A stretch of 64,000 bases of DNA from Candidatus Terraquivivens ruidianensis (GTDB lineage Archaea; Thermoproteota; Nitrososphaeria_A; Caldarchaeales; Wolframiiraptoraceae), in assembly GCA_023267975.1 (NCBI GenBank), contig JALNLA010000003.1, forward strand, positions 62,001 to 126,000, read 5' to 3'. Below, piece by piece: positions 29,127-52,719 of this stretch. The number at the start of each line of letters is the position of its first letter. Positions within the stretch are counted from its first letter, which is position 1. The position numbers and the translations under genes are program-made. The notes under the pieces were generated by a model. It ran no database searches and was not told the DNA's origin. It saw only the letters and a program-made list of their open reading frames with translations.

Positions 29127-29576
29127 ATGGTGAACCGCTGCATGGGTAAGGAATATCCGAAGATGCCGGTGGTCGCCGTAGGTGCGCTGATACTTCAAGA
29201 CCACAACATACTTCTAGTTAAGAGGACGAACGAGCCCGGTAAAGGAAGGTGGTCCATCCCGGGCGGTACCGTCGAAATCGGGGAGTCGTTGAGGGATGCT
29301 GTGGTCAGGGAAGTTTACGAGGAAACCGGCCTCGTGGTTGAAGTGCTCGAATTACTGGACGTTGTCGAGGTCATCAGGAAGGATGAGGTCGGTAACATAG
29401 CCTTCCACTATGTAATCCTCGATTACTTGGCTAAACCAGTTGGTGGTACACTCGTGGCTGCTTCGGATGCCTCGGATGTTCTTTGGGTACCTATCGATGA
29501 GGCTATGAAGATGGAAATTACAGATAGCCTAAGAGCCATGCTTCAAAAGCTAATGAAGAAGGGGTTCTTCGTCTAA
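29127..29576 (+). CDS. Nudix hydrolase
   Basis: Nudix enzymes cleave nucleoside diphosphates linked to another group. The 149-residue protein has an intact Nudix box (GGTVEIGESLRDAVVREVYEETGL), with the GRWSIPGG strand before it. It resembles ADP-ribose pyrophosphatase or 8-oxo-dGTPase-type members; the substrate cannot be read. The ATG is one base after the lhr stop, behind AGGTAG, suggesting co-transcription with lhr. Confidence 0.9.
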   Translation: MVNRCMGKEYPKMPVVAVGALILQDHNILLVKRTNEPGKGRWSIPGGTVEIGESLRDAVVREVYEETGLVVEVLELLDVVEVIRKDEVGNIAFHYVILDYLAKPVGGTLVAASDASDVLWVPIDEAMKMEITDSLRAMLQKLMKKGFFV

Positions 29577-30193
29577 GTCTTCTCTTCAACCTCATCTTTA
29601 GCCTGGGAGGGTGAAAGGTCCATTATAGCCTTCAGTAACTCCTTTTCGTCCACCTCCGCCAGCGTTCTCCACCCGACCTTTATCATGCTGTCCTCAGCCC
29701 TTATAAGATACCCTTTCCTGACGAAGCGCTCTATGGCGGCCTCTACCTTCCACCTCGGAAGCTTTACCTCGATGAGTTCCACCAGCTCTTTCTCAGTAGC
29801 CTTACCACCCTTTGTGAATATGTAGGAGAGTGCCGCCGCTAGGACGGCCACGTCGTCTATATTCCAGCCTGCGGCCACTATGTCAGCAACCGAGAGTGGT
29901 TCTGAGAGTGTGATGAAGAACCTAGCCCTATCGAAGTCCTCCTGTGCTGGATTATCACCTAAAGGCTGGTCGAACATTATCTTTACCCTAAGGCCTATGC
30001 CATTCAGCTTACTATTCAGCGCATCAATTATCTTGAGATAATTCCTACCCAGCCTCCTCCGCAGCTCCCAGCCCCTGACACCAGGAAGTCTGTGGCTCGA
30101 GAAGAGGAGCATGCTGGCGGCTATCGCTAACTTCCTGCCAGTTCGCTCGGTTTCATTCTTTTTTTCTTCCAAGACCTTTAGACACCTCTCCAC
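29573..30193 (-). CDS. MAGE/Nse3-like kite subunit of an SMC complex
   Basis: The 206-residue protein appears to be two winged-helix domains. The C-terminal half strongly recalls the MAGE homology domain of eukaryotic Nse3. ALSYIFTKGGKATEKELVEL (121-140) corresponds to the LSxIFxxGxxxxEEELWxxL helix pair, RFVRKGYLIRAED to the VRQxYLxY strand, and GWRTLAEVDEKELLKAI to WGPRAxAExSKxKVLExL. The N-terminal half (RGWELRRRLGRNYLKIIDAL) looks like the first wing. ScpB and JetB are structural relatives (kite proteins). It is third in an SMC-kleisin-kite operon, overlapping the kleisin gene by 41 bases. The start is GTG 30193 or TTG 30172. The family call rests on pattern recognition and context. Confidence 0.72.
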   Translation of the reverse strand: MERCLKVLEEKKNETERTGRKLAIAASMLLFSSHRLPGVRGWELRRRLGRNYLKIIDALNSKLNGIGLRVKIMFDQPLGDNPAQEDFDRARFFITLSEPLSVADIVAAGWNIDDVAVLAAALSYIFTKGGKATEKELVELIEVKLPRWKVEAAIERFVRKGYLIRAEDSMIKVGWRTLAEVDEKELLKAIMDLSPSQAKDEVEEKT

Positions 30194-30944
30194 TTTTTAT
30201 GGAAACTACGAGCGCCGCTATTTTTTCTCTCTTTTGCTTCGAAGGATACGGTATCACCTTCATCTCTCCGGTAAGAGGATTCTTCTTTATTTCTGCCAAG
30301 CCTTCCGTGACCATGAAGCTAAGCACATACGCCTTCCACACGGTGTCTTCGAAGGTGTACGCACTCACTATAGACCAGTAGTCCACCTCGCCGCTGCTTC
30401 CTGCCATCATGATGCACCTATCATGCATCTTCTTTATTTCCTCTTCCAACTCAATGCCTTTTGCATATCCGACCTGGCCCGCGATACGCTGTGCATCCTC
30501 CCGCGCTATTGGAAGCTTTTCAAGAACCCTAGCTCTTGGCGGTAGCATCAAAAAATATTCCATTCCCTGCCTTAACCTATAAAGCGTAAGTTGCTCGGCT
30601 TTGACGATGGGCCTCCAGCTCCTCGCGAGCGCCGTAGCCAACTGCTTCGACTCGGCAGAAGCAATCTTAAGCGATACAAGTTGACTGTCTATGAAGAGTG
30701 ACGACGCCCTCTCCTTAAGCCATCTCTGTTGCAGCGATATCAGGACAGCTATCTTGTAAAGCGTCTCAGCATCAAGGACTATAGTATCCAAATCCCTTTG
30801 CTCTACCAGTATGCGCCTCAGCCTCATCAGGAGCTCCTTCACGTTAACTGAGAACGGGTCCAAGCCCCTTTTCTCGATGGACTCGCAAAGCGCTATTATC
30901 CTCTCCAGCTCCTCCTTGCTCACCATCTTCTTTTCATGAGACAT
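30153..30944 (-). CDS. ScpA/Nse4-like kleisin subunit of an SMC complex
   Basis: The 263-residue protein fits a kleisin, which bridges the two SMC heads. The N-terminal segment (about 18-85) follows the ScpA pattern: IEKRGLDPFSVNVKELLMRL, then a DAETLYKIAVLISLQQRWLK helix like the ScpA helix that packs on the SMC neck. The C-terminal segment (about 190-232) has a winged-helix pattern, SAYTFEDTVWKAYVLSF then MVTEGLAEIKKNPLTGEMKV. This resembles the ScpA domain that binds the SMC cap. It lies 6 bases after the SMC gene and overlaps the MAGE-like gene. No annotated family is obvious from sequence alone. Confidence 0.68.
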   Translation of the reverse strand: MSHEKKMVSKEELERIIALCESIEKRGLDPFSVNVKELLMRLRRILVEQRDLDTIVLDAETLYKIAVLISLQQRWLKERASSLFIDSQLVSLKIASAESKQLATALARSWRPIVKAEQLTLYRLRQGMEYFLMLPPRARVLEKLPIAREDAQRIAGQVGYAKGIELEEEIKKMHDRCIMMAGSSGEVDYWSIVSAYTFEDTVWKAYVLSFMVTEGLAEIKKNPLTGEMKVIPYPSKQKREKIAALVVSIKSGEVSKGLGRKKE

Positions 30945-30950
30945 ATTGTA

Positions 30951-32738
30951 TTACCTTTCCATCACACCGACAGAAGACCTTCCGCTGACGTTTTGAACGA
31001 TGATGACGTTCACGTCCTCGTCCACATTTATGTAACCAGGCGTTATTATTATGTACTGGACGGATGGGTCGCCTTTAGCCGTTGCCGTCAGCATCTTTAC
31101 CATTCTCTCCCTATTGAGAGGGTCCAAGTGAACGTCAAACTCGTCGACGGCCCTGAATGATGACTTAACGTACTTCTGTAGCGCAAGAAGGAAGGCGAGT
31201 GTCGCCACTATCCTCTCACCACCACTCTGCGTGTGGGAGTCTAAGAGTACGGGTTCAACGCCCCTAAAGCCGACGTAAAGGTCGAGGGATGCTTTCTCAA
31301 GGTCTTCCAAGTTGCGTAGGGATATCTTACCGCTTGCATCAACTGATTTCAGTATTTGGACGTAAGCCGGCTCGACTTCTGCTATAAGCTTTCTTAAGAA
31401 CTCCCTCCAAACCTCCTTTCTATGCTCAACTTCTTCCTTTGCCTTCTCTATGTTCTCGGATAGTTGCTTGGCTTTCATCTCAACCTCGCTGTACTTGGCG
31501 TCCGCCAAAAGGTACATTTCTTCGGCATTCGGCGTCACGCTACCCAAAGAGCTCATCTGGACTTCTAAGATCTTCAAATCCTCTTGAATCTCTATCGGTT
31601 TTCTACTGGTCTCGACACGAGGTCCTTTTAGCTCAGCCTCGGACATCTGGGATGCGAGCTTCGTCTTCAGCTCGCTCAGCTGGGACTTTAGCTTCCTCAT
31701 CTCAGACTCTATTAGACGTGTCTTGAACCTTGCGATCCCCTCTTGGACTTTCTCATCAACTAGCTCGTCTATCAGCCCATCTATCGTTTTTTCTAAATCA
31801 TCCAAAACCTCAGACGTTTGGGGTCCTACCCCCCTTAGCTGGTGTATCGTATCACGAATTCTCCCACGTAAAACCTCGGCTTCTGAGCTGTGCTCCTTAG
31901 CTTCCTTGTCTAAATCCTCAACCTCTAAGACAAGGGACGCAATCTTATCCTCAATCCTCTTTATATCGTTCTCCAAGGCTATAACTTGAGACCAAGCAAG
32001 CTCCCGCTCAAGCTCAACCTTATGACCCTCAAGCCTCTTGAGCTTCATCAGCTTCTCATACTCCTCTCTCCAATACTCCACGGTCGCCCTCGCTTCCTCC
32101 AGTGTTTTCTTGAAGCTCACTTCTTCGGTCAGCAGCATGTTCAGCTTGGCCTCAGCATCCATTATCCTCTCCCTGAGCCTCGATGCGCCGACAGCATCCT
32201 CAACCATCTGGAGCTTCTCGACGCTGCTCTTGGTCACGAACTGCTCTATCATATTCTGGTGCATTATGATGAGCATGTTGTTAGGGTTGATGCCTACTTG
32301 CTTAAGCAAGTGCTCGACCTCGGCCTTCGCCATAAACCTGTTGTTCACGTAGTGCCAGTAGTCTCCATTTCTTTTAAGGTACCTGGCGATGGATACTGTG
32401 TCCGTGTTTATTGTTCTAAAAGGTCTTTTTCTGTCATAAGCACTATTGTTGAATACGACAGTGACCCTGGCCACATCCTTTCCGCGACGTATTAGGTCGC
32501 TTAGCCGCTCACCCCTCTCCGTGTAAGTCTGACCAAGGGCCACGGATATGCCTAAGAGTATTGAGGACTTCCCGGCGCCGTTGGGCCCCATTATGACGTT
32601 AAGACCAGGCCTCAGCGGTATCCTAGAGTACTCGTGAGACATAAAGTTCTCTAGGATTACCTCCTTTATGTGCGGCAGGTACTCGGCCCTCTGCTCCAGC
32701 TCAAGCCTCTCAGTGGGTCGCTCGTCCGAATTTTCCAC
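30951..32738 (-). CDS. Compact SMC5/6-like ATPase
   Basis: The 595-residue protein has complete SMC head motifs: Walker A GPNGAGKSS (51-59), a Q-loop-like HQNMIEQF (160-167), signature QSGGER (504-509), Walker B AVDEFDVHLDP (530-540), and QYIIITP (561-567). NFMSHE, RGERLSDLIRRGKDVARVTV, the HTQSGGERIVATLAFLLALQ block and the QYxxITP end resemble SMC5/SMC6 more than bacterial SMC or Rad50. The coiled-coil arms (about 190-300 and 330-455) are very short and I see no normal ~150-residue hinge; eukaryotic SMC5/6 have about 1000-1100 residues. The GTG start follows GGAGGAGAG. It is first in the operon. Confidence 0.85.
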   Translation of the reverse strand: MENSDERPTERLELEQRAEYLPHIKEVILENFMSHEYSRIPLRPGLNVIMGPNGAGKSSILLGISVALGQTYTERGERLSDLIRRGKDVARVTVVFNNSAYDRKRPFRTINTDTVSIARYLKRNGDYWHYVNNRFMAKAEVEHLLKQVGINPNNMLIIMHQNMIEQFVTKSSVEKLQMVEDAVGASRLRERIMDAEAKLNMLLTEEVSFKKTLEEARATVEYWREEYEKLMKLKRLEGHKVELERELAWSQVIALENDIKRIEDKIASLVLEVEDLDKEAKEHSSEAEVLRGRIRDTIHQLRGVGPQTSEVLDDLEKTIDGLIDELVDEKVQEGIARFKTRLIESEMRKLKSQLSELKTKLASQMSEAELKGPRVETSRKPIEIQEDLKILEVQMSSLGSVTPNAEEMYLLADAKYSEVEMKAKQLSENIEKAKEEVEHRKEVWREFLRKLIAEVEPAYVQILKSVDASGKISLRNLEDLEKASLDLYVGFRGVEPVLLDSHTQSGGERIVATLAFLLALQKYVKSSFRAVDEFDVHLDPLNRERMVKMLTATAKGDPSVQYIIITPGYINVDEDVNVIIVQNVSGRSSVGVMER

Positions 32739-46954: not shown

Positions 46955-47842
46955 ATGCCAATGACGCTGAAGCAGCTTTTTGAGCGCGCAAACTTGCTTA
47001 AGCAAAGGCTACGGGAAGAGGAGGGTAGCGAGAGATATCAAGCGTGGTTGAAGAGGGCAAAGAATGTCTGGAGGCCGTACCAGCCTAAGAAGGTTAGGAA
47101 GAAAATTGCGGCAGTCGATAGCGGATGGAATTACAGAATGTACGGCGGGTTTTACCTCTATACCATTAGGGCTATGGCCGTCGCACCATCATCAGAAACC
47201 GTTACGGAACCCGTGGTAGAAGTTGACATAATACCGATGGGGGTTGAGGACTCAGGCATAAGACCCGAGTTGTACATGCAAGGAGTGGCCGAATGTTATG
47301 AACACGACTTAGCATCAAAAGCATCAAAGTTTTCGGATATTGTTTTAGTCGACGGGTCTATCTTAGCGAGACTAAACGCGATGGATATCTTAAAAAAGGT
47401 CAGGCTCTTAAAAGATTACGTAGTTTACATGAGGCCGCTGAAAAATGCAAGGAACATACTCTTCATATCGAAGTACTCCCAAGACAGGAGACTTATACGT
47501 GGAGGGGTTGGAGACGTTTACTACATCAACAGGGCAACGAGAGACATCGGGTATACGGAGCCCATAATATCCGAGAAGGAGGGGGTGATGACATCAGTCT
47601 TCTACGTTAGGTTGTCAGAAAATTCCGATGCGATGCACGTGGAGGTCCCTGCCATAGTCAACTCCGAATACGTCAAATCCGTAATTGACGCACTGTATGG
47701 CACGGCAGTCAAGGGATACCCGTACGCCCTTATGGTTGCCCATGAGATGGCCTCAGTACCCAACGATCTTATGGATATGGTCGTCGAGGCAGCAGGGCTC
47801 GCCGCTCTTCCGACGGCTAGGGAGGTGCTCGAGGTTGGTTGA
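46955..47842 (+). CDS. nurA: NurA 5'-3' nuclease
   Basis: NurA is the nuclease partner of HerA; with Mre11-Rad50 it resects DNA ends for recombinational repair. The 295-residue protein has the acidic motifs AVDSGW (Asp55) and VLVDGSILARL, the metal-binding sites of the family, plus a C-terminal aspartate in YVKSVIDALYG. It opens the nurA-herA-mre11-rad50 operon. Two in-frame ATGs at 46955 and 46961 are equally possible starts. Confidence 0.95.
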   Translation: MPMTLKQLFERANLLKQRLREEEGSERYQAWLKRAKNVWRPYQPKKVRKKIAAVDSGWNYRMYGGFYLYTIRAMAVAPSSETVTEPVVEVDIIPMGVEDSGIRPELYMQGVAECYEHDLASKASKFSDIVLVDGSILARLNAMDILKKVRLLKDYVVYMRPLKNARNILFISKYSQDRRLIRGGVGDVYYINRATRDIGYTEPIISEKEGVMTSVFYVRLSENSDAMHVEVPAIVNSEYVKSVIDALYGTAVKGYPYALMVAHEMASVPNDLMDMVVEAAGLAALPTAREVLEVG

Positions 47843-49325
47843 AATCGGTATCGTGGTCGGCGAGGCAAGACCCGAAAGGATAAAATTCTTCACGAAAGAG
47901 GCGGTCAGGGTCGGAGAGTTCGTCGTGACAGATACTGTGGACGGGCGAGTTTTGTACTTGGTAGAATCCTCTAAGCTGGAGAGTAAGCTTCTGTCGAGTG
48001 TGGGTGACTACATAACGGCAATTGAGGCAAAGGAAGCAAGTAAGGCTAACCCTAGGGACGTTGTGAGGTATTGTGCAGCAAGGGCCGTCGGGCTTATCGA
48101 GGGAGTTTTGAAGGGTAGGCGCGTTTATCCCACCCTACCGCCTGAGCCGGGCTCGGCCGTCTTCCTAGCCGAAGACGATTTGCTAAGGCAAATATTCCAT
48201 AATGATTCGAGGGAGTGGGTTGAAGTTGGAAGGTTGTTGAGGAGGGATGGGGTTATAGTTTCGATCAACTTGAACAAGGTTGCCTCCAGGCACCTTGCGA
48301 TATTGGCAGCTACCGGCAAGGGGAAGTCGAACCTATTAGCACTCCTAGCAAAGGAAACAGCGGAGAAGAATGGAACCATGATAATCTTAGACTATCACGC
48401 AGAGTATTGTAAACTGAAGATTGAAAAAGCGAGGTTCGTGACTCCGAGGATCAATCCGAGACATCTAGACTCTGAGGAGTTGGCAGATATGCTCGACATA
48501 AGGAGTGACGCAACGAGGCAAAGGGGCATACTCGGAAGGGCATACAATAAAAATGTGGCGAGCTCACCGAACTTCTGGGAAGCTCTAAAGAAAAACCTTG
48601 AGGATATTGTAGAAAACGAAGAGACGGACTTTCAAGCTAAGGTTACCGCTGAGAGGGTCCTGGAGATAATCGATAGGGGGCTCGCGATAAAGGGTAACAT
48701 ATTCAATACAGAGACGGAGAGCCCGCTAGACATCATCGAGCCCAACAGGATAAATGTGTTAGACCTCTCGGGATTCACAGAAATCCAAGCTCAGATAATC
48801 GTTGCGCGCTACTTAACGGAAATCCTGAATGACAGGAAGAACGCAACGCTCGGCAGGAGGTCAAGGTTCAAATCGCCCGTAGTCATAGCGGTCGAGGAGG
48901 CTCATACGTTCATACCGTATGACAGAAAATCCAAATGTTCTGATGTGTTAGCTAGAATAGCGAGGGAAGGTAGAAAGTTCGGTGTCTCGCTGATTCTAGT
49001 CTCACAAAGACCCTGCAAGCTGGACGCGGATGTCGCGAGCCAGATGGGTAGCTTCGCCGTATCTGGCTTGACCCATCCAAAGGACCAGGACTTTGTCATG
49101 GAAGTGACTGACGAGGTCTCGACGGAGCTAGGCGCATCATTACCAAGCCTTAACACTGGCGAGATGATACTCGCAGGTCAATGGGTAACAGTACCGGCAC
49201 TCGTTAAGGTGGACCTCATAGAAGAGAAGGTCATAGGCATGGACTTAAACGCGATAGAAATGTGGGCCGAGGACGTCAATGTGGGATACAGAAGGATATC
49301 GACGGAGGAACTCATCAGACTATGA
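47835..49325 (+). CDS. herA: HerA bipolar DNA helicase/translocase
   Basis: HerA is a hexameric FtsK-like ATPase that works with NurA in end resection. The 496-residue protein has an N-terminal HAS barrel (about 1-140). Walker A is ATGKGKSN (159-166). A Walker B-like block reads VVIAVEEAHTFIP, and a sensor/Arg-finger region reads LARIAREGRKFGVSLILVSQRP. The frame is open 150 bases further upstream, but the TTG at 47835, overlapping the nurA end by 8 bases and preceded by GGAGGTGCTCGAGG, gives the proper N terminus VEIGIVVGEARP. Confidence 0.95.
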   Translation: MVEIGIVVGEARPERIKFFTKEAVRVGEFVVTDTVDGRVLYLVESSKLESKLLSSVGDYITAIEAKEASKANPRDVVRYCAARAVGLIEGVLKGRRVYPTLPPEPGSAVFLAEDDLLRQIFHNDSREWVEVGRLLRRDGVIVSINLNKVASRHLAILAATGKGKSNLLALLAKETAEKNGTMIILDYHAEYCKLKIEKARFVTPRINPRHLDSEELADMLDIRSDATRQRGILGRAYNKNVASSPNFWEALKKNLEDIVENEETDFQAKVTAERVLEIIDRGLAIKGNIFNTETESPLDIIEPNRINVLDLSGFTEIQAQIIVARYLTEILNDRKNATLGRRSRFKSPVVIAVEEAHTFIPYDRKSKCSDVLARIAREGRKFGVSLILVSQRPCKLDADVASQMGSFAVSGLTHPKDQDFVMEVTDEVSTELGASLPSLNTGEMILAGQWVTVPALVKVDLIEEKVIGMDLNAIEMWAEDVNVGYRRISTEELIRL

Positions 49326-50437
49326 TTATCGGGCACATGTCCGATACGCATCTCGGAGCTTATGCGGGAAAGGACGATGAGAGGGAGCAAGATTACTACG
49401 ACGCTTTCCGGGAGGCTATCGAGGTATTTGTAAAGGACCACGTCAAGTTGGTCATCCACTCGGGCGACATACTGGACTCTCCCAAACCATACGGAACCGC
49501 CATGAAGGTTCTTGTAGAGGGCGTTAAGCTACTGGATGAAAGAGGCATACAGTTTCTATTTACATTGGGTGAGCACGACATATCTAACGTTCCAAGCACG
49601 CCCCACCCTTACCTCCTTGACGTTCTGGGGGTCGCTAAGTATGTTGGAACAGGAGAACCTGTCATTATCGACGACGTAGTTGTAGCCGGCCTTCACAAGC
49701 ATAAGAGAGTTGAAAGGGAAATGTTATGCAAAAAGCTTGACGAGGTTGCTAGAAGGGTGAGCCAAACGGACGGAAAAAGAAGAATCGTTGTCTTACATCA
49801 AGGACTTACGGGGTTACGTGAGTTTGTGGGCGAGATATCCAAAGACGATATCCCAGCAGGCTTTGATTACTATGCGATGGGGCACTTCCATGTGCCCTAC
49901 GAGTTCAGATGCGGTAAAGGGTTGGGTGCATACCCAGGAGCGACCCATTGGGTGGACTGGGACGACCCCGAGACCACTTCCATCAACTTAGTTGACCTTT
50001 CCGGTGATGAGCCTAGGATAAACATAGTTAGATTAAAGACCGTAAGACCAAAGATAGAGAAGGATACAAAGCTCGAAGAGCTGGATGGCATTTTACAAGA
50101 GCTAGCATCCTCTATACGTGAAAACCGTAAGAAGCCTTGCCTCCTACTAAAAGTCGAAACCGACAGACCCTTTGACCCTAGGCCGTCTGAAGATTCGTTA
50201 AAGAACCACTACATCGTCACGATTAGGCAAGTCTTGAAAAAGGTGGGCGGAGAGGTTCTGCAGGAGGCTCCAGACGTGAATGCCGAGTTGGTGAGGTTGA
50301 CGGAAAACGTTATAGGAGACAAGGATAAAGCCGAGTTTGCGCTCTTCGAATTACTCAAGGCCCTTAGCGATGAGGATTGGAGGAAGGGGGCACTTGAGCT
50401 CGTCTGGAATGTCTTCAAAGAGGGAAAGCTAAAGTGA
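49322..50437 (+). CDS. mre11: Mre11 nuclease/phosphodiesterase
   Basis: Mre11 processes DNA ends together with Rad50. The 371-residue protein has HMSDTHLGAY (motif 1), IHSGDILDS (motif 2), LGEHDIS in the place of the usual GNHD motif, VLHQG and YAMGHFHVP (GHxH motif). The GEHD variant replaces the metal-binding Asn with Glu. ATG 49322 overlaps the herA stop as ATGA, and its 3' end overlaps the rad50 GTG start (GTGA), so all four genes are tightly coupled. Confidence 0.95.
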   Translation: MIIGHMSDTHLGAYAGKDDEREQDYYDAFREAIEVFVKDHVKLVIHSGDILDSPKPYGTAMKVLVEGVKLLDERGIQFLFTLGEHDISNVPSTPHPYLLDVLGVAKYVGTGEPVIIDDVVVAGLHKHKRVEREMLCKKLDEVARRVSQTDGKRRIVVLHQGLTGLREFVGEISKDDIPAGFDYYAMGHFHVPYEFRCGKGLGAYPGATHWVDWDDPETTSINLVDLSGDEPRINIVRLKTVRPKIEKDTKLEELDGILQELASSIRENRKKPCLLLKVETDRPFDPRPSEDSLKNHYIVTIRQVLKKVGGEVLQEAPDVNAELVRLTENVIGDKDKAEFALFELLKALSDEDWRKGALELVWNVFKEGKLK

Positions 50438-52719
50438 TCACTAGGGTTTTCCTCAAGAATTTCATATCACATAAGGAGACTTCCCTGAACCTAGGGCCAG
50501 GTCTTCACGTCTTCGTGGGCAGAAATGGTTCTGGAAAGACTTCTGTCATAGATGGAATAACTTATGCGCTCTTCAGCAAGCATGGAAGGGGAGGTAACAC
50601 CAACATAGCTAGGGATGGGACACCCGGAGGTCTTGTAGAGGTTGAGGTAATGCTCGGCGGCAGGACGTACTTAGTCGGTAGGAGCTTCGACCGTCAAGGT
50701 AAGCTGGAAGAAGCGTACCTAAGAGTTGATGGAAAATCCTTGGTGAGGGGCGAGAGAAAGAAGGAGGACACGGTAACTAAAAAGGTCGAGGAAATCTTGG
50801 GCATGGGATACGAAAGGATGAGAGCATCCGTAATCATTCAGCAAGGAGAGATTGACAGGATACTTTCTTGGCAACCGAAGGAGATAAAGGCACTCTTCGA
50901 CGACCTCCTAGGTCTTAGCATGATGGAAAACGCTTACATGAAGATGGGTAGCGTGATTAAGGATTTCGAAGAAAGAATAAGAGAGGAGACGGAATACTCG
51001 GTTGACGAAGCCGACAGGGTCAGTAAAGAAATCTCAGAATCTGAGTTGGCTCTAAACAATCTTAACGAGGAATTAAGAAAGGAAGAGTACCAACTCACGG
51101 AGTTAAAGAAAAAGTGTGAGGGGATGGAGGTTAAGCTAGAAAGGATGGAGCACTATAAAGAAGCATACTCTGATGCTTTATCCAAAGTTAATTCTATCAA
51201 GGCCATCGTTAGGGATTGGATAAAAAGAAAAGAGGCAGAGCTTGAGAAGTGTGCATCAATATTAAAACTGATAGAAAGGATGGACGTGGTCAATGATAGG
51301 GTCAATAAAAAGAATAAGCTAAAAGAAGAAATCACAAAGTTAGAGACGGAGATTGAGCATTTAGAGAAGGAAATAAACAGGGTCGAGGGCGAAAGGGTAG
51401 AAGTTGAGAAGAAGTTAAATGCCCTGGGAGAAAAAGAGGTTAGGGGAAGGATGTTTTCTGAGCTCCTCAAAGAGGTCGATAGCGAGACGGCTGAGCTCGT
51501 CAGGTTGGCCGTAGAGTTCGGCAAGGCATTAGCAACGGGAGACGGAAGAGAAATTACTCTGAAGAAGTCTGTGGAGGACAAAAGGAAAGAGATAATCGAA
51601 CTTTTTAGAGAGTCGTATACATCTGGGCTCCAGACATACTCCGAGGACCTAAAGGCCAAAAGGAAGACCTTGGGCGAGGAGAAAGAGGCCCTTTCATTAA
51701 AGAGAGAGTCATCAATGGTGATGTTAAATGCTAAGAAGAAAGAATTCGCTCAACTCTCTAAACTGGATGGTAAAGATGTTGAAGAGTGGCAAGAAGAAGT
51801 TAGGAGGGCTAAGGCAACCTTAGAGGCAATTGGCATCGATAGCCCAGAGAGGCTTGGTCTTGAGAAGACGAAGTTAGAGCGCATTAAGAACATCCTTGCG
51901 TCAATTCCAGAAGACAGCCTTCCAGACCTTGAATTGCTTAACGCCCTAGCCGTGACGGATGAGGTTGCTCAGATGGTAAAGAACGCTAATGCCACGATAT
52001 CAGAGGCCAGGGCCTTTGATAAGGAGCGATACGGGGAGCTTAGGAAATCCTACGATGAGCTTCAGAAGAATATTGGCGTGCTGCAGGGTGAGCTTGAGGG
52101 GATTAAGAAAGACATCAAGAAGGAAGAGGATAAGCTTAGAAAGCTCAAGAGCGTCACATCCATCCTTCAGGATGCCAAGAGGTTCCGAGATTTCCTCATG
52201 GATGTTAGGGATAAGGTGTACCATAGGGATGGTCCCGTGCTTAAGTCCCTCAGATCGTGGGCCATCAGCGAGACGTCCAGGCTTGCCACTAGGCACCTAG
52301 AGATGTTCAACATTAACGTTGACGGTGTGAGGCTAGAGGAAGTAAAAAACGAGCTCGAGATTAAATGCTATCAGAGAGGGCGGGAAGTCGATGCTGATAG
52401 GCTTAGCGGTGGTGAGAAGGTTGCCGTGGCGCTTGCCCTTAGACTTGCCATCGGCGATATCTTGGGCGCGAGAAGGTTAGGCTTCTTCATACTCGATGAG
52501 CCGACCGTGCACCTCGATTCCGAGAATAAGAAAAGGCTTGCGGAAGTCTTCTCGGCGCTTAGCAAAGGGGTCAGGCAGGTAATCGTAATCACGCACGACG
52601 AAGAAGTCTTCGAAGAAGCTGAAGCTGCATTGTATAAATTTGAAAGAGGAGCAGGAATAGAGGAGCACACCAGAGTGGAGCCCCTAGGAAAAATAACAAT
52701 AGGTCTAACAAAAAGCTAA
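50434..52719 (+). CDS. rad50: Rad50 ATPase without a zinc-hook motif
   Basis: Rad50 holds DNA ends and controls Mre11. The 761-residue protein has NFISHKETSL, Walker A GRNGSGKTS (29-37), Q-loop IIQQGEIDRIL, signature RLSGGEKVAVALALRLA (656-672) and Walker B LGFFILDEPTVHLD (682-695). Long coiled-coil arms run about 170-330 and 400-600. The normal apex CxxC zinc hook is absent: the only cysteines are 228, 273 and 645, none in a CxxC. The protein is also shorter than P. furiosus Rad50. The start is GTG, overlapping mre11 by 4 bases. Confidence 0.95.
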   Translation: MITRVFLKNFISHKETSLNLGPGLHVFVGRNGSGKTSVIDGITYALFSKHGRGGNTNIARDGTPGGLVEVEVMLGGRTYLVGRSFDRQGKLEEAYLRVDGKSLVRGERKKEDTVTKKVEEILGMGYERMRASVIIQQGEIDRILSWQPKEIKALFDDLLGLSMMENAYMKMGSVIKDFEERIREETEYSVDEADRVSKEISESELALNNLNEELRKEEYQLTELKKKCEGMEVKLERMEHYKEAYSDALSKVNSIKAIVRDWIKRKEAELEKCASILKLIERMDVVNDRVNKKNKLKEEITKLETEIEHLEKEINRVEGERVEVEKKLNALGEKEVRGRMFSELLKEVDSETAELVRLAVEFGKALATGDGREITLKKSVEDKRKEIIELFRESYTSGLQTYSEDLKAKRKTLGEEKEALSLKRESSMVMLNAKKKEFAQLSKLDGKDVEEWQEEVRRAKATLEAIGIDSPERLGLEKTKLERIKNILASIPEDSLPDLELLNALAVTDEVAQMVKNANATISEARAFDKERYGELRKSYDELQKNIGVLQGELEGIKKDIKKEEDKLRKLKSVTSILQDAKRFRDFLMDVRDKVYHRDGPVLKSLRSWAISETSRLATRHLEMFNINVDGVRLEEVKNELEIKCYQRGREVDADRLSGGEKVAVALALRLAIGDILGARRLGFFILDEPTVHLDSENKKRLAEVFSALSKGVRQVIVITHDEEVFEEAEAALYKFERGAGIEEHTRVEPLGKITIGLTKS

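Follow-up and report, generated by a model that had tools for sequence, protein, structure and literature searches.

A Rad50 protein without a zinc hook and with a predicted helical hairpin at its apex in the archaeal genus Candidatus Terraquivivens

The CxxC motif of Rad50 has been described as invariable (PMC1533848) and as conserved in all domains of life (PMC9569753). In human Rad50, a Cys-to-Gly change in the hook opens the arms, while in yeast the joining of the arms is restored when the MukB hinge is put in place of the hook (PMC6969161). These engineered human and yeast proteins, like the one described here, are without a working hook of their own, but they are laboratory mutants, whereas the change reported below is a natural one. 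Some homologues of LmuB, a Rad50 relative of the Lamassu defence system, are likewise hookless (PMC10586767), although LmuB is a defence protein of ~650 aa and not the Mre11-partner Rad50 of an operon. A similar loss of the apex dimerisation module is found within the SMC superfamily in the hinge-less proteins of ocean bacteria (PMC12153180), which however belong to the SMC lineage and not to Rad50. A search of open-access papers, with most subscription journals outside it, returned no earlier report of a hookless Rad50 linked to Mre11.

The protein described here is encoded in a 64,000-nucleotide stretch of the Candidatus Terraquivivens ruidianensis genome (contig JALNLA010000003.1, positions 62,001 to 126,000), hereafter called the window, to which all gene coordinates refer. 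Since the lineage appears to have removed the hook naturally while keeping Mre11, the Rad50 heads and a conserved apex, the role of the hook becomes testable, and its purpose, whether metal tethering or simply the joining of the tips, could be addressed in comparisons among natural proteins rather than mutants.

The Rad50 gene and its operon

The rad50 gene, delimited from the open reading frames, family models, solved heads and motifs, occupies positions 50434–52719 of the forward strand, starts with GTG and codes for 761 aa. On the basis of the motifs and structure models, the N-terminal half of the head with the Walker A motif and the Q-loop comprises residues 1–189 (50434–51000, +), and is followed by an N-terminal coiled-coil arm (residues 190–333; 51001–51432, +) that AlphaFold2 predicts as one helix. 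The models and a conservation scan place a putative apex hairpin at residues 341–402 (51454–51639, +), where it would replace the zinc-hook domain, and its turn, GDGR at residues 369–372 (51538–51549, +), falls at the hook position of the relatives in the apex model and two alignments. The C-terminal arm is modelled at residues 403–596 (51640–52221, +) with a conserved break near 441–449, and the C-terminal half of the head, carrying the LSGGE signature, Walker B and the H-loop, covers residues 597–761 (52222–52716, +).

The cysteines of the whole protein are residues 228, 273 and 645 and form no CxxC, exactly as the sequence-only reading had it, and the middle of the protein, also as claimed there, is free of them. 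A scan found no cysteine within residues 290–440, which makes a zinc-thiolate hook impossible in the middle of the protein, and neither cysteine nor histidine within residues 330–420, which excludes an apical zinc site of the classical kind; substitute Cys or His ligands are ruled out there, as the window protein has none. Both Rad50 family models and the solved structures of Rad50 heads match the protein, and all of the Walker A, Q-loop, LSGGE signature, Walker B and H-loop elements are present in a head that is split around a long predicted coil. The best-scoring model families are the NCBIfam Rad50 equivalogs NF041034 and NF003034, which give 220 and 208 bits, short of the curated scores of 1000 and 700, whereas the arcadin-4 (Rkd4) model NF053563 gives 65 bits against a curated 860. 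Together with the family models and motifs, the neighbouring mre11 gene and the tree of heads described below bear out the earlier claim of a genuine Rad50 without a CxxC hook: the window protein is a Rad50 by lineage, but does not have the feature that defines the canonical zinc-hook Rad50.

The partner nuclease gene mre11 (49322–50437, +; NCBIfam Mre11_Sulfo, E = 1.1e-44), with a probable ATG start, overlaps rad50 by 4 bases, and a check of its active-site motifs found the phosphoesterase motifs intact, motif III being GEHD. Further upstream lie the ATPase gene herA (47835–49325, +), the exact start of which is uncertain within an open reading frame of 47685–49325 and which has orthologues at L039–L041, L044, L075 and L076, and the end-resection nuclease gene nurA (46955–47842, +; Pfam NurA, E = 1.1e-13), which adjoins herA in the hookless relatives too. 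The order nurA-herA-mre11-rad50 is common to the genus, to Archaeon HR02 and to the single-contig genome G024, and the adjacency of mre11 and rad50 is kept in relatives. The Mre11 proteins encoded beside hookless Rad50s match that of the window at 1e-106 or better, as opposed to about 1e-32 to 1e-36 where the neighbouring Rad50 is a different one of the order, and, judged from these matches, Mre11 co-travels with Rad50. Of the 9 hookless-type Mre11s checked, 8 have this GEHD as their motif III, where the listed hook-type archaeal ones have GDHD. The CPLC Rad50s of other Caldarchaeales (e.g. L053, L054, L056) come from the same order and are likewise encoded beside mre11, but possess a zinc hook, are about 800 aa long, belong to a different clade and have an Mre11 more distant from that of the window.

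Distribution and origin of the hookless Rad50

A hookless Rad50 is present in all six genomes of Candidatus Terraquivivens (Caldarchaeales), with 61–71% identity to the window protein across the other genomes of the genus; in G002 the gene is divided between two contigs. Outside the genus the hookless protein occurs in genomes G010, G024 and G032, and the named carriers there are Archaeon HR02 and isolate SKYB129, while Ca. Wolframiiraptor gerlachensis holds a partial copy. G024, presumably Ca. Caldiarchaeum subterraneum, consists of one contig of 1,680,938 bases. The consistent absence of the hook from 6/6 genomes of the genus is not explained by sequencing error, and a frameshift or assembly error, for which the sequence-only reading had suggested checking the reads, is ruled out by the equally hookless genes of the genus and of the three genomes outside it. 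In an automatic count, at least 68 distinct Rad50 or Rad50-like proteins sampled from this one phylum carry CPxC in the middle. The motif is missing from the hookless clade, among which the window protein is listed twice, and from a single further protein, whose apex is hydrophobic. A separate reading, a sample of the same scope, found CPxC in 38/38 proteins from many families, and both counts argue against a chance absence of the hook.

It is very improbable that the missing hook is an artefact after all, or that a second, hook-bearing Rad50 performs the tethering. The genomes compared are mostly metagenome assemblies, that of the window being 97% complete, and one genome, G017, does have a hookless copy alongside a hook-bearing one; however, the hookless protein is found in several families, including on the 1.68 Mb single contig, and no second Rad50 was found among the six genomes of the genus, where the remaining hits are an SMC-like protein of 605–612 aa, an SMC of ~1160 aa and short ABC ATPases. 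The contig with the hookless copy in G017, in turn, is titled cov_3 and measures 6.4 kb, and that copy may stem from contamination during binning. Seven Caldarchaeales genomes that are 90–97% complete (G022, G027, G028, G030, G031, G034 and G038) gave no strong match to canonical Rad50, which may be absent from them or very divergent.

In the tree of heads, which left out SMC and arcadin-4 sequences, the window protein lies among the sampled Rad50s, and all hookless proteins form one clade (support 98/99). The clade groups with the hook-bearing CPVC Rad50s of family f7, although the support of 89/95 is slightly below the strict threshold. Archaeal AmoA is encoded by the genomes of f7 and of families f41 and f45, which are therefore ammonia oxidisers, and a profile of the Rad50s from the three families aligns to the hookless protein over 666 columns (E = 2.8e-111). 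These Rad50s differ from the hookless one in having a CPVC apex, and those of f7 have shorter arms (692–701 aa in total). Several f7 proteins (L019, L021, L023–L028, L030) contain an extra CxxC, such as CEGC or CQGC, which precedes the CPVC hook by about 58 residues.

Since the hookless proteins make up a single clade and their nearest relatives are hook-bearing, the simplest reading is a single hook loss on the stem of the clade, and as the loss is clade-wide, it is not recent. Within the clade, the hookless proteins of families f1, f2 and f4 cluster together (99/96) and separately from the genus, which itself also belongs to f1, and relatives within these same families retain a CPLC Rad50. 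This suggests that the operon either has been transferred between lineages or was differentially lost.

The apex of the coiled coil

The alignment of related archaeal Rad50s that the sequence-only reading had proposed as a means of marking the apex puts the hook on the GDGRE turn of the window protein. In the MAFFT alignment, LQDGKCPVCDSHVD of the hook-bearing relatives pairs with TGDGREITLKKSVE of the window Rad50, and HHalign likewise lays the hook on DGREIT, with the second cysteine shifted by four residues. In both alignments the CPVC of the relatives falls on DGREIT. In the MAFFT register the position of the second cysteine is a leucine in every hookless protein, while the first is variable. 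The apex had been expected within residues 330–540, where it is indeed located, but it does not spread across this range and instead occupies approximately residues 341–402, with the tip at 369–373.

AlphaFold2 models the apex fragment as two helices, 341–368 and 373–459, connected by a turn at 369–372 and with high confidence around the turn, in a single-chain model built from nine sequences. The full-length model, also a single chain, shows the same topology at lower confidence and a break at 334–338. The apex is thus predicted to be a tight metal-free alpha-helical hairpin. An SMC-type globular hinge is unsupported, as the models are of a helical hairpin and find no fold match; in a search against solved structures the apex model gave no significant match to any fold (best E = 0.066), including the known dimerisation folds. 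Compared with the arms, the hydrophobicity of the apex is not clearly higher. In the coil, the best-conserved stretch of 62 residues coincides with 341–402 to within a few residues, with conservation of 0.31 against 0.21 between clades and 0.64 against 0.51 within the genus, a level attained by about 1% of circular shifts. That no other part of the coil is as well conserved as the tip favours a retained function of the apex.

The explanation that we consider best is that the arms meet through metal-free helix packing at their tips, to which we assign a probability of roughly 0.5, with apex dimerisation being what we infer from the conserved hairpin. The ancestor would have been a hook-bearing Rad50 like those of present-day ammonia-oxidising archaea; it would have lost its CPxC zinc clasp, its apex turning into a metal-free alpha-helical hairpin. 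The resulting protein, the sole Rad50 detected in the genus and paired with Mre11 in the nurA-herA-mre11-rad50 operon, would most likely assemble into an Mre11(2)-Rad50(2) complex via the Mre11 dimer and ATP-driven engagement of the heads, and the tips of the arms would most likely still be in contact by helix packing of residues 341–402. Such packing is suggested by the conserved apex, the hairpin model, both alignments, the intact head and Mre11 motifs and the conserved operon, and also by the replacement of the hook with an unrelated dimerising module in yeast (PMC6969161). It is weakened by an apex that is not clearly hydrophobic, by the lack of a fold match and by the nine-sequence basis of the model.

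The choice posed by the sequence-only reading, between a different apex fold and a loss of tethering, is a reasonable one. Tethering at the apex may have been lost, with the Mre11 dimer and the ATP-engaged Rad50 heads sufficing and the hairpin merely closing the coil, a serious rival that we regard as somewhat less probable. All zinc ligands are gone while the head and Mre11 motifs are intact, the apex is neither enriched in hydrophobic residues nor similar to a dimerisation fold, and for one function, the activation of ATM by human MRN, the zinc-hook connection is reported to be dispensable (PMC3642328). A mere end loop, however, would not need the highest conservation of the whole coil, seen both between clades and within the genus. 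The conservation could also reflect a partner protein, which further weakens the case for self-packing: the hairpin might bind another protein, or DNA, that links two complexes as a substitute for the hook, and the conserved surface motif of the tip, with no obvious signature of self-association, would suit such a role. This is unlikely, as no candidate partner was found and the operon consists of nurA, herA, mre11 and rad50 only. If metal-free packing of the tips does hold, the proteins would represent a further natural mode of joining the Rad50 arms, a helical hairpin having evolved in thermophilic archaea where the hook had been, which we propose tentatively and at a little under even odds.

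Other apex variants and an SMC-type cassette

A Rad50 of the CPLC clade (L074, 2449–4872; the same gene as in L038) lacks CxxC, has a moderately hydrophobic apex hairpin and is encoded beside herA and mre11, and possibly represents a second, independent hook loss. SbcC-like ATPases (L071, L072, L073 and L145) are also without a hook and have a strongly hydrophobic segment resembling a membrane hairpin at the coil apex, and in L071–L073 the gene adjoins that of an Mre11-like nuclease. Genera g4 and g5 of the same family (L064, L066, L068, L070) encode a Rad50-like protein of ~660 aa with CPTC, and its gene adjoins an Mre11-like gene of its own wherever the latter is recognised.

Elsewhere in the window, positions 29573–32738 of the reverse strand hold a conserved three-gene cassette of an SMC-type ATPase and two small genes. 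One of the cassette genes is weakly similar to Nse4, with Nse4_C found in 6 of 10 homologues and Nse4 as the top PDB hits of its profile (E = 0.006), and another to MAGE/Nse3 (7 of 11 homologues, best 1.2e-4) or to Nse1, all of them components of the Smc5/6 complex. The cassette is possibly a minimal Smc5/6-like complex, a reading that serves as a lead only because both Pfam matches obtained with the proteins of the window itself fall below the curated cut-offs. The SMC-type ATPase itself (595 aa; TIGR02169, 1e-59) seems too short to include a hinge and has matches in 70 of the 151 genomes of the phylum.
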